A DNA stretch of 64,000 nt from Haloarcula salinisoli (GTDB taxonomy: Archaea > Halobacteriota > Halobacteria > Halobacteriales > Haloarculaceae), in contig NZ_RKLQ01000002.1 of NCBI RefSeq assembly GCF_019599405.1, forward strand, positions 558,001 to 622,000, given 5' to 3'. Below are positions 45,503 to 49,758 of this stretch, in pieces (positions within the stretch are counted from its first letter, which is position 1; the number at the start of each line of letters is the position of its first letter). A program made the position numbers and the translations under genes. The notes beneath the pieces are model-generated. The model was not told the origin of the DNA. It saw nothing but the letters and a program-made list of their open reading frames with translations, and did not search any database.

Positions 45503-46084
45503 TTACGGGGATTCGCTCGTCTCGAGCGTGAACTCTTCGGTGGGGTAGGCCACACAGGTCAGACAGTAGCCCTCCTCCATGTCGTCGTCCATCAGCGAAT
45601 CGTTCTGGCTGTGGCGGATGTACTCCTCAGCGGGCCCGTCGGTGATCTGGCCGGCACAGGAGATACACTGCCCCTCGCGGCAGGCGTAGGGGAGGTCCCA
45701 CCCTTCCTCTTCGCCGGCCTCGAGCAGGTTCTCGTTGTTGGCGACCTCGATGGTCTCGCCCTCCTTCGCGAACTCGATTTCGTAGTACTCGACCTCGTCG
45801 TCGGCGATGGCGTCGGGGTCGAAGCCGGCTTCCTCTTCTTCCTCCTCGGACTCGCCGAGTTCGCCCTCGGCCTCGCCGGCCGGAATCGCCGCCGCGCTGC
45901 CGCCACCGATACCGCGGTTGTACGGCTCCGGGAAGTCAGTCTCCGGAACCGTCGCGGCCCGCTGTTCGAGGACCTCCTGCGAGATGTCCTCCGGTGCCTC
46001 CCAGCCAGTCCCCTTCGCGTAGTGTAGGGCTACGACGATGAGGGTAAGCGTGAGCCCGGAGAGGACGCCTACGAATGATACCAT
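45503..46084 (-). CDS. membrane-anchored [2Fe-2S] ferredoxin
   Basis: 193 aa. One N-terminal helix (about 4-21), an acidic linker (about 70-100) and a plant-type ferredoxin domain with Cys135, Cys140, Cys143 and Cys174 (C-x4-C-x2-C-x30-C). It differs from the soluble haloarchaeal ferredoxin by the anchor and by the missing N-terminal acidic insert. Electron partner unknown. Confidence 0.9.
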   Translation of the reverse strand: MVSFVGVLSGLTLTLIVVALHYAKGTGWEAPEDISQEVLEQRAATVPETDFPEPYNRGIGGGSAAAIPAGEAEGELGESEEEEEEAGFDPDAIADDEVEYYEIEFAKEGETIEVANNENLLEAGEEEGWDLPYACREGQCISCAGQITDGPAEEYIRHSQNDSLMDDDMEEGYCLTCVAYPTEEFTLETSESP

Positions 46085-46201
46085 ATCGGTGGCTTTGGAG
46101 TACTGATTTAATTAGCTGTTGTTTTTTCGGCCACAGCGTCGGCCGATGGCAGACCAGCCGCTATCCGAAACGCTTTATTTCGGGTTTTGAAATCCATATT
46201 T

Positions 46202-46630
46202 ATGGGGTTCAGAGAACAGTGGGCCGAACTCGGTACAGGTGTGAAGGTTATCATCGGGCTCGTGCTTCTCGTCGGCCTGATCCCGCTCCTGGTTATCCTC
46301 GCGGCGATAGTCGCCTCGTTCGTGCTCGGATTCGGTAGCGGCGGCGAGGCTGCGGCGGCCCCACAGGCTTCGTGGGGATACGAGTACAACGAGACGAACG
46401 AATCGTCGGGTAAACTCACTATCATCCACGAGGGGGGCGACTCCATCGAGGTGTCGAAGCTCACCGTGGAAGTCGGGTCAGACACTGTCGACTGGGACGC
46501 CGATTCAGAGCGGATCAGTGTCGGTGACAGCACCACAGTCGAGGCCGGACCTGACGAGGTTGTCAGAGTCGTGTGGAGAAGTGGCGGAGAGGAGACGATT
46601 ATCGGAGAGTGGGACGGACAGGGCTACTGA
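46202..46630 (+). CDS. pilin-like secreted or anchored protein
   Basis: 142 aa. Hydrophobic helix at about 15-43 without a clear class III cleavage motif. Then a beta domain APQASWGYEYNETNESSGKLTIIHEGGDSIEVSKLTV typical of the C-part of haloarchaeal type IV pilins. ATG 46202 follows a TATA-like gctttattt by about 22 nt. The absence of the usual prepilin site makes pilus assembly uncertain. Confidence 0.7.
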   Translation: MGFREQWAELGTGVKVIIGLVLLVGLIPLLVILAAIVASFVLGFGSGGEAAAAPQASWGYEYNETNESSGKLTIIHEGGDSIEVSKLTVEVGSDTVDWDADSERISVGDSTTVEAGPDEVVRVVWRSGGEETIIGEWDGQGY

Positions 46631-46679
46631 GTAACGGGCACTAGCTCTCACGATGTTAGGCGGCACTACACGCGATGGT

Positions 46680-46855
46680 AGCGAAACCAGCGATTTCGCT
46701 CACTTCCGATGGACTCCGTCCATCGACCTTCACGAACGCTGCGTGTTCGTTCACTTCCGATGAACGAAGTTCATCGGCGTTCGCGAACCCTTCCGGGTTC
46801 GCTCACTTCCGGGAGACGACACGCGTCTCCCGTTGTTCGCAGAACCTGCGGTTCT
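46680..46855. repeat. array of seven hairpins with TCACTTCC linkers (hairpin family locus D)
   Basis: Seven consecutive inverted repeats lie between two convergent genes. 46680-46700 has AGCGAAA arms. 46707-46725 has CGATGGA. 46732-46750 has ACGAAC. 46757-46777 has CCGATGAAC, 9 bp, loop GAA. 46783-46802 has GCGAACCC, loop TTCC. 46810-46832 has CGGGAGACG, 9 bp. 46841-46855 has AGAACC, loop TGC. Copies of CACTTCC separate them. Every stem sequence is different, but both arms match within each hairpin. Confidence 0.85.
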
Positions 46856-46857
46856 AC

Positions 46858-47757
46858 TCACTCCCTGCGGGGAACCTCGTGGCGACCGAACCCGTAGCGG
46901 AGCCGGCTTGCGAGCCGCCGCGAGAAGCGGCCGTCGTCGGCCCGCGAGCCGAAGCGTTCACCGAGTGCCTGGTAGATGAGCGGCACCGGCACTTCCTGTT
47001 CCAGTGCCTCCTGGACGGTCCAGGTCCCCGTCGACCCACCCTCGACGCGGTCGGCCACGTCGCCGAGGTCGTTGCCCTCCTCGCGGAACGCCTCCTCACA
47101 CAGTTCCAGCAGCCACGAGCGGATGACGGCGCCGTTGTTCCAGGTGCGCGCGACGGCTTCCAGGTCGAGGTCGTAGCGGCCGTTGGCCAGCAGCTCGAAC
47201 CCCTCGCCGTAGGTCTGCATCAGCGCGTACTCGACGCCGTTGTGGATCATTTTGACGTAGTGGCCCGAGCCGGCCGGGCCCATGCGGTCGTGGCCCTCGG
47301 GCCCGGTCGCGACGGCGTCGAAGACCGGCACGAGTTCGTCGTAGGCCCACTGCTTCCCGCCGACCATCAGCGAGAAGCCAAGCTCCGCGCCGGCGGGGCC
47401 GCCGGAGGTGCCACAATCGAGATACGCCGCTTTCGTCTTCGCCGCTCGGCGGACGGAGTCCTCGAAGTGGGAGTTGCCGCCGTCGACGACGACGTCGTTG
47501 CGGTCGACGTGTGGTTCCAGTTCGTCCAGTGCCGCGTCGACGGGGTCGCCAGCGGGGACCATCAGCCAGATGCGCTTGTCGCCCGACAGCGACTGCGCGA
47601 GGTCCGGGATAGAGTCCGCAGGCTGTGCCCCTGCGTCGGCGGCGTCGGCGACCGCCTCCTCGTCGATATCGAAGACGACCACGTCGTGACCCGCGTCCAG
47701 CACGCGGTCGACGACGATGCGTCCCATGCGTCCGAGTCCGATGACGCCTAGTTCCAT
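46858..47757 (-). CDS. gnd: 6-phosphogluconate dehydrogenase (decarboxylating), short type
   Basis: 299 aa. Rossmann GLGRMGRIVVDRVLDAGHDVVVFDIDEEAV, where the Asp after the second strand hints at NAD preference. Further marks are CGTSGGPAGAELGFSLMVGG, GPAGSGHYVKMIHNGVEYALMQ with the catalytic Lys, and a short C-terminal domain. Oxidises 6-phosphogluconate to ribulose 5-phosphate in the oxidative pentose phosphate pathway. The 299 aa form resembles the GntZ/YqeC class, not the 470 aa E. coli Gnd. Confidence 0.93.
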   Translation of the reverse strand: MELGVIGLGRMGRIVVDRVLDAGHDVVVFDIDEEAVADAADAGAQPADSIPDLAQSLSGDKRIWLMVPAGDPVDAALDELEPHVDRNDVVVDGGNSHFEDSVRRAAKTKAAYLDCGTSGGPAGAELGFSLMVGGKQWAYDELVPVFDAVATGPEGHDRMGPAGSGHYVKMIHNGVEYALMQTYGEGFELLANGRYDLDLEAVARTWNNGAVIRSWLLELCEEAFREEGNDLGDVADRVEGGSTGTWTVQEALEQEVPVPLIYQALGERFGSRADDGRFSRRLASRLRYGFGRHEVPRRE

Positions 47758-48384: not shown

Positions 48385-49467
48385 ATGGACGAACGCGTAC
48401 GCGAACACGCACGCACACTGGTCGAGTGGAGCGCACGCATCGAAGACGGGGACGACGTCGTCCTCGAGGTCGGCGAGGGCGCCCACGACCTGGGCGTCAC
48501 CGTCGCCGAGCAGCTGGGCGAGAAAGGCGCGAACCTGCTTGCGACGTATCGTTCGCCGGAGCTCCAGCGGGCCTACCTCCGGGCCCACGACGGCGACTTC
48601 GAGGCCGACCCCGGCCACGAACTGGCGCTGTACGAGGCCGCCGACAGCGTTCTCATCCTGAAGGGGTCGAACAACACTGCCGGCAGCGCGGACGTGCCCG
48701 GTGACGTTCGGCAGGCCCACTCGAAGGCCCGCCAGGCCATCCGGGAAGCCCGCCTCGACACCGACTGGGTCTCGACCCAGCACCCGACGCGGGCGATGGC
48801 CCAGCAGGCCGGGATGGCCTACGCCGAGTATCAGGAGTTCGTCTACGACGCGACGCTGCGGGACTGGGAGGCGCTGGCCGAGGAGCAAGCGAGACTCAAG
48901 GACATCCTCGACGACGGCGAGACGGTCCGCATCCGAAACGAGGGAACGGACCTCACCCTGGACATCGGGGACCGTATCGCGGTCAACTCCGCGGCTAGCG
49001 TCGCCTACGACTCCCACAACCTCCCGTCGGGCGAGGTCTTTACCGCCCCGGCCGACACCGCCGGCGTCGTCACCTTCGACGTGCCGATGACCATCCAGGG
49101 CCGTCGCGTGCGCGACGTGAAACTGACGTTCAAGGACGGCGTCGTGGTCGACTACGCGGCCGAACAGGGCGCCGACGTCATCGAGGAGGTGTTAGAGACC
49201 GACGGCGGTTCGCGACGGCTGGGCGAGCTGGGCATCGGGATGAACCGCGGCGTCGACCGGGTCACCGACAACATCCTCTTCGACGAGAAGATGGGCGGTA
49301 CCGTCCATCTGGCGCTGGGGCGGGCCTACGACGCCTGCCTGCCCGAGGGCGAGGCCGGCAACGACAGCGCGGTCCACGAGGACCTCATCACCACGATGGG
49401 CGAGGGGTCGCGTCTGGAGGTCGACGGCGAGACGGTGCAGGTCGACGGGCAGTTTGTGTGGGAGTGA
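48385..49467 (+). CDS. M29-family aminopeptidase
   Basis: 360 aa. Thermophilic metallo-aminopeptidase family (AmpS/PepS-like). Features: N-terminal VREHARTLVEWSARIEDGDDVVLEVGEG, LPSGEVFTAP with the metal Glu, and C-terminal LGELGIGMNRGVDRVTDNILFDEKMGGTVHLALG with Glu/His ligands. Start at ATG 48385; the open frame upstream overlaps the divergent DsrE gene and is ignored. Confidence 0.92.
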   Translation: MDERVREHARTLVEWSARIEDGDDVVLEVGEGAHDLGVTVAEQLGEKGANLLATYRSPELQRAYLRAHDGDFEADPGHELALYEAADSVLILKGSNNTAGSADVPGDVRQAHSKARQAIREARLDTDWVSTQHPTRAMAQQAGMAYAEYQEFVYDATLRDWEALAEEQARLKDILDDGETVRIRNEGTDLTLDIGDRIAVNSAASVAYDSHNLPSGEVFTAPADTAGVVTFDVPMTIQGRRVRDVKLTFKDGVVVDYAAEQGADVIEEVLETDGGSRRLGELGIGMNRGVDRVTDNILFDEKMGGTVHLALGRAYDACLPEGEAGNDSAVHEDLITTMGEGSRLEVDGETVQVDGQFVWE

Positions 49468-49575
49468 GCGAACCCCGAGGATTTCGCGAACGCCGATGAA
49501 CGTAGTTCGTCGGAAGTGAGCGGAGCCGCAGGCTCCGCGAGAACCGCCGGAGGGAAGCGCTGTCGCTCCGATGTC
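49468..49575. repeat. hairpin family locus E
   Basis: CCGATGAAC-GTA-GTTCGTCGG (49493-49513, one mismatch) and CGGAGCC-GCA-GGCTCCG (49521-49537), joined by GGAAGTGAG. This is the reverse complement of the CACTTCC linker of locus D, so the same vocabulary is used in the opposite orientation after the aminopeptidase stop. Confidence 0.7.
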
Positions 49576-49758
49576 GTCAGTTAAATCCGCGAAAGGGGTG
49601 GGGGGTGGGGGGTGGTGGCACCCAAAGTGGGTGCAGTCGGTGCTTCGACAGTGGTGGTAAAGAAGGTTCCGGCCGAGGTGTTGCGGTTTTCGTTACTCGA
49701 ATGACGAATCCTCCCCGCGGCGATAACACATATGTGCCGCCACCGCATACCACTGCCC

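Follow-up and report, generated by a model that had tools for sequence, protein, structure and literature searches.

A dispersed, REP-like two-hairpin repeat of haloarchaea, probably mobile and targeted to gene and tRNA ends

In the genome of Haloarcula salinisoli, seven hairpins that differ in stem sequence follow one another between two convergent genes, one for an archaeal type IV pilin (PF07790) and the other, gnd, for 6-phosphogluconate dehydrogenase. What kind of element forms such a row, and is its pairing kept for the sake of RNA or of DNA? We addressed these questions in a 64,000-nucleotide stretch of the genome (NZ_RKLQ01000002.1, positions 558,001 to 622,000; hereafter the window) and by comparison with related genomes. 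The row of seven is made up of 3.5 tandem units of a small two-hairpin repeat of DNA. This repeat is a dispersed, REP-like palindromic element, probably mobile, and targeted to GGRANTGA at the ends of genes and tRNAs.

The hairpin array at the end of gnd

The array comprises seven inverted repeats in 177 bp (46681-46857), which alternate on the minus strand as A-B-A-B-A-B-A (Table 1). Read with its linkers the order on this strand is GGGAGTGA-A1-GAACAA-B1-GGAAGTGA-A2-GAACG-B2-GGAAGTGA-A3-GAAGGT-B3-GGAAGTGA-A4. An initial reading made from the sequence alone had placed a CACTTCC-type linker between all the hairpins. The kind of linker was right, but TCACTTCC occupies only every second junction (three of six), with a variant, TCACTCCC, at the gnd end, and the remaining junctions are short linkers of the GAANG type. 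Because these two kinds of linker alternate, the period of the array is two hairpins (51-55 nt). The same reading had named the convergent neighbors correctly, but the array does not stand free between them: it begins at the gnd stop codon. The pilin-like gene (46187-46630), which lies between gnd and a ferredoxin gene, is missing there in several relatives (e.g. G002, G041 and G024).

Table 1. Features of the two arrays in the window
Feature	Position	Strand	Sequence or remark	Basis
Leading linker GGGAGTGA	46858-46865	-	TGA at 46858-46860 is the gnd stop codon; same linker at other gene ends	sequence and ORF list
Hairpin A1	46839-46857	-	GTAGAACC gca GGTTCTGC	sequence, folding; covariance match
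Hairpin B1	46810-46832	-	CGGGAGACG cgtgt CGTCTCCCG	folding and covariance match
Linker GGAAGTGA	46803-46810	-	plus strand TCACTTCC	
Hairpin A2	46783-46802	-	GCGAACCC ggaa GGGTTCGC	folding and covariance match
Hairpin B2	46757-46777	-	CCGATGAAC ttc GTTCATCGG	folding and covariance match
Linker GGAAGTGA	46751-46758	-	plus strand TCACTTCC	
Hairpin A3	46732-46750	-	ACGAAC acgcagc GTTCGT	folding and covariance match
Hairpin B3	46707-46725	-	CGATGGAC gga GTCCATCG	folding and covariance match
Linker GGAAGTGA	46700-46707	-	plus strand TCACTTCC	
Hairpin A4	46681-46699	-	GCGAAATC gct GGTTTCGC; half unit closing the array	
Second array, same family	49460-49556	+	starts at M29 peptidase stop codon; units 49460-49519 and 49512-49556	covariance match

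That there are seven hairpins in a row is borne out far beyond chance. The segment contains seven stems of at least 6 bp, five of which reach 7 bp or more; in none of 2000 first-order shuffles did the number of these longer stems exceed two. Its folding z-scores are -5.6 on the plus and -6.1 on the minus strand, with none of 200 shuffles equally stable, and nowhere else in the window do three or more hairpins of 7 bp or longer form a cluster. The window as a whole contains 92 hairpins where a first-order Markov model predicts 44, an excess that might be expected if the array had arisen by chance, or from coding sequence in decay, within GC-rich intergenic DNA. We give that explanation practically no credence: besides the result of the local shuffles, it is refuted by the recurrence of the two-hairpin unit and its linkers, with covariation, across genomes. 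A search of 46000-47600 with the 4227 Rfam models found no match at E<=1, and on related loci these models recovered the neighboring tRNAs only.

A recurrent unit with variable stems

The unit is about 51-63 nt in length and reads GGRANTGA, hairpin A, GAnNG, hairpin B, such that in a series it follows the plan NTGA, hairpin A (7-8 bp), GAnNG, hairpin B (8-10 bp), GGRA. The last three positions of the NTGA motif at the foot of the hairpin are T in 93%, G in 97% and A in 97%. Of 116 units, 62 carry GGGAGTGA or GGGACTGA as the linker and 41 have the antisense T-arm on the right. A first alignment of 16 units from three genomes, aligned on sequence alone, revealed two-sided changes in 12 of 18 pairs, a signal that was lost when the partners were slid by 1-3 columns; the units having been chosen as hairpins, this is covariation among chosen hairpins and not an unbiased rate. 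In a set of 93 distinct units both partners change in 15 of the 18 pairs, and two-sided cells number 324, although the share of paired cells is inflated because these units were collected by a model search.

A covariance model of the unit (R1) gave 57 matches at E<=1 in the H. salinisoli genome, tandem arrays included, the best having an E-value of 1e-18. Matches were recovered in 63 of 77 genomes of Haloarculaceae (E<=0.01), and the covariance search across haloarchaea that the sequence-only reading had envisaged found them in 81 of 145 genomes of the class (E<=1e-4). In a phylum-wide sample of 119 genomes there was no R1 match outside haloarchaea, all eight positives being haloarchaeal, though the other members may differ in GC content. 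The family is unusual in that its shape and short linkers hold the members together while the stems turn over. Only a few units from separate loci reach 86-95% identity, and the closest ones sit in the same larger repeat; the divergence of stem sequences between copies exceeds what is usual for a recently moved element, which counts against a mobile reading. No description of the repeat was found in the open-access PMC literature searched. Thus, the element for which no name had been found is apparently an undescribed two-hairpin repeat, real and recurrent, yet it is not confined to a single locus and belongs to a known general kind, as a variant within the REP-like small palindromic repeats and not a new class of system.

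Orthologous sites reveal both turnover and retention of the hairpins. At the gnd site no array is present in other species of Haloarcula, and in G002, G041 and G024 there are apparent decayed remnants with imperfect hairpins. Behind the gene for ribosomal protein S10 (PF00338), which we examined in 13 species of Haloarcula, GAGGACTGA is followed by a hairpin in 8 of them. The stems show compensatory changes: GTGAAGC/GCTTCAC, GTGAGGC/GCCTCAC, GCGAAGC/GCTTCGC, GCGAACC/GGTTCGC and GCGAAAC/GTTTCGC, and two more with one G.T pair. The S10 end also bears units in another genus (G070) and in another family (G238), in the latter as near-identical tandem copies; in many other haloarchaea this end is empty. 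At locus L163 related species share units that occupy differing positions in their arrays, which points to gain and loss of units. The proposal that structure and not sequence is kept here thus holds both across units and at the orthologous S10 site; pairing is conserved at orthologous loci, and decayed coding sequence does not account for the stems. The number of hairpins, whose variation between strains had been proposed as a check, differs in our comparison between species.

Filled and empty sites, and tRNA ends

Filled and empty sites were compared between species and between paralogues. The H. salinisoli genome also contains another palindromic repeat, GCCCCTTTCAGTCCC...GGGACTGAAAGGGGC, represented by about 75 exact half-sites that mostly form inverted pairs. 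Its empty copies are 60-62 bp long (54 bp in one subtype), and three filled copies measure 115-117 bp and contain one A+B unit after GGGACTGA, an insert of 54-56 bp. At the gene end of locus L169 an array is present in H. salinisoli where four relatives have bare GGGACTGA and one has GGGACTAA. Furthermore, the Y1 tnpA genes of L235 and L248 contain an in-frame unit of 17 codons, in antisense orientation, between the residues PK and YR, and the tnpA of the close relative L233 is without it. Together, the filled and empty copies of the repeat, the empty gene ends of relatives and the in-frame tnpA unit show that the units are inserted. The GCCCCTTTCAGTCCC...GGGACTGAAAGGGGC repeat itself occurs on G000 C1, C2, C3 and C5 (e.g. 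L338, L341, L344) and in other haloarchaeal families (L323, L324, L330). A degraded version of the PK/YR insert, with a stop codon, is seen in the tnpA genes of L236 and L237.

From the sequence of these sites GGRA(NTGA) is taken as the target; because the unit itself ends in GGRA, duplication of the target and a right end borne by the element are inseparable. At the ends of protein genes the GGRANTGA-like sites read xGG GAG TGA or xGG GAC TGA, and they resemble the antisense T-arm of tRNA genes (GGGATTTGAAC). When the in-frame open length upstream of TGA was determined for all units, the control frames were open about as often, so that placement at stop codons rests on the identified genes and their orthologues.

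A tRNA gene lies within 600 nt at 51 of 80 unit-bearing loci, and the units near tRNA genes are consistently oriented: antisense on the 3' side (50 vs 5) and sense on the 5' side (18 vs 6). Copies of tRNA ends flank the units. At seven loci (L183, L187, L166, L176, L157, L208 and L337) copies of the tRNA 3' end (acceptor and half T-arm, about 13 nt) or of the 5' end occur beside complete tRNA genes, with a hairpin unit between copy and gene; L183 and L187 have in addition an inverted copy that pairs with the tRNA-end copy. A short att at the tRNA 3' end has been reported for an SNJ2-type integrase (PMC8371274), and att remnants of such integrases are a lead only for the source of the tRNA-end copies. 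Searches of viral contigs with two strict exact patterns, and a distant BLAST search against plasmids, recovered nothing, which is weak evidence on carriage by viruses or plasmids given that the patterns were exact.

Pairing constraint and spread of the repeat

Sense RNA under selection should tolerate G.U pairs but not A.C. The imperfect pairs in the unit stems comprise 29 G.T and 22 A.C (p=0.40), as against 56 to 1 (G.U vs A.C) in the tRNA acceptor and T stems from the fetched loci (Fisher p=8e-8 for the difference). The preference for G.U over A.C expected of a functional sense RNA is hence not seen in the unit stems, and since the model search should favor G.U its bias runs against this near-equal result. 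From the near-equality the pairing constraint looks strand-symmetric, that is DNA-like and not that of a sense RNA, which fits a function as single-stranded DNA or cruciform, or correction of one arm by the other.

The sequence-only reading had looked to RNA-seq and RNA covariance, and tandem hairpins in the 3' UTRs of gnd, S10 and other genes could indeed terminate transcription, stabilize the RNA or block read-through, under selection for the RNA fold. Arrays start at stop codons in sense orientation, the S10 hairpin is kept with compensatory changes in those eight species, and in Haloferax volcanii 503 of the RNA 3' ends have a hairpin upstream (PMC7237163). We nevertheless regard this as unlikely: apart from the strand symmetry, which the tRNA stems at the same loci do not share, many units lie outside 3' UTRs, next to tRNA genes or within other repeats and coding sequence, including the antisense one in frame in the transposase gene; most relatives are without hairpins at gnd, and there is no U-tract within the gnd array. 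A role in transcription termination is possible at some gene ends but is not general. The invariant UGA...GA around stem A might be read as a K-turn, which we set aside by reasoning because the first unit of an array is without an outer helix. Somewhat less unlikely, though still doubtful as the whole explanation, is upkeep of the stems by mutation without selection, in which quasi-palindromes are corrected by template switching in replication, one arm serving as template for the other. The stems would thereby remain perfect as they drift, and the units would spread through duplication in tandem and through recombination between GGRANTGA microhomologies. In favor of such a process, changes on both sides of a stem are far more numerous than changes on one side, the imperfect pairs are strand-symmetric, and the near-identical copies behind S10 in G238 represent local amplification; yet the decayed, imperfect hairpins at gnd in G002, G041 and G024 persist, and alone it fails to explain precise insertion into other repeats and tnpA. 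It may act together with a mobile element.

Alternatively, the unit might be a terminal-only PATE, a remnant of an IS200/IS605 transposon of which the two end palindromes are left and which TnpA moves. Terminal-only PATEs of Haloquadratum measure 52 bp and have two fused near-terminal palindromes, matching the unit in size and plan (PMC3119063). This origin is improbable, because at the Y1 tnpA loci of the genus (ends of seven inspected, all thirty searched with R1) the ends are unlike the unit and the strongest R1 matches are insertions inside tnpA. The H. salinisoli genome has a single Y1 copy, of the IS605 type, and genomes without a detected Y1 gene (G015, G019, G021, G043) still carry units. 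Given these differing ends and the units in such genomes, Y1 transposases are not the obvious source; an IS200/IS605 origin through tnpA was set aside on the mismatch of the ends at these Y1 loci. No cognate enzyme was found among the Y1 transposase genes of the genus, none of which has the unit as its ends.

We therefore favor, as reasonably likely, the reading in which the array is 3.5 tandem copies of a dispersed repeat that enters GGRANTGA-like sites, moves as DNA and grows in tandem by regenerating its site. It draws directly on the two-hairpin unit, its dispersal and site preference, the filled and empty sites, gain and loss in tandem, and the pairing kept with variable stems. Under this reading units would enter DNA at short GGRANTGA-like sites, and the end of each unit would regenerate the site such that more could be added in tandem. 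Movement would take place at the DNA level, most likely in the form of folded single strands, with a putative host or trans-acting enzyme reading the shape and a short flank. A requirement at the DNA level, or repair that perfects the palindrome from its two arms, would keep the stems paired as their sequence drifts, and at some gene ends the hairpins may be recruited secondarily as 3'-UTR structure. A stronger version, which we put forward only tentatively, is a family of mobile DNA defined by shape, in which the putative enzyme moves folded single-strand two-hairpin units by reading nothing but the fold and the GGRANTGA flank, leaving the stems free to evolve. If true, the targeting of gene stops and tRNA ends would make this a safe-site element that has spread through haloarchaea.

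Several known systems offer comparisons. Rickettsia palindromic elements are likewise palindromic units of about 50 bp, found also in frame in coding genes; the present unit differs in organisms and sequence, and its copies stand in tandem and mainly at the ends of genes and tRNAs. Integron attC sites are recognized as a folded single-strand shape whose stem sequence may vary, a likeness that is analogy only, no cassettes or integron features having been seen with the haloarchaeal units. The bacterial REP, BIME and REPIN sequences (PMC3733652, PMC3116915) are short palindromes, often extragenic and clustered, with dozens of copies per genome, some intragenic, and they have a short conserved unpaired motif at the hairpin foot; many dispersed, often clustered copies are present here too. 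The foot is GTAG or CGTC in REP/REPIN and NTGA after GGRA in the haloarchaeal unit, which is further set apart by two different hairpins per unit, head-to-tail arrays, far more variable stems and an archaeal host. A RAYT (Y1) gene flanked by the repeat, as in REP/REPIN, was found at none of the Y1 loci of the genus. Closer in host are the PATEs and small mobile repeats of Haloquadratum walsbyi (PMC3119063), which are also transposase-free. By description, terminal-only PATEs lack a target duplication, and their 52 bp compare with our array period of 51-55 nt and insert of 54-56 bp; PATEs share their ends with IS605-type transposons, whereas our units match no Y1 element ends examined in the genus. 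SMR-A, again by description, is unlike the unit, at about 110 bp with inverted terminal repeats (PMC3119063).

Small palindromic repeats are well known in bacteria and little described in archaea. Selection on RNA, selection on single-stranded DNA and repair could each maintain palindromes, and the haloarchaeal repeat provides a natural setting in which to test which of them does. The comparison of G.T with A.C as a measure of strand symmetry separates the first of these from the other two, and it carries a warning that covariation in an intergenic alignment alone is not evidence of a functional RNA. Two multi-hairpin clusters (L149 and L017; G000 C2:1267241 and C1:457072) have a related GGGAGTGA but other further linkers (GATCTG, GCATCA), and are perhaps a sister family. 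Elsewhere in the window, at 49575-49640, a G-rich run, GGGGTGGGGGGTGGTG, and a hairpin, GCACCCAaagTGGGTGC, lie upstream of an acetyltransferase-like ORF and are kept in all Haloarcula relatives examined.
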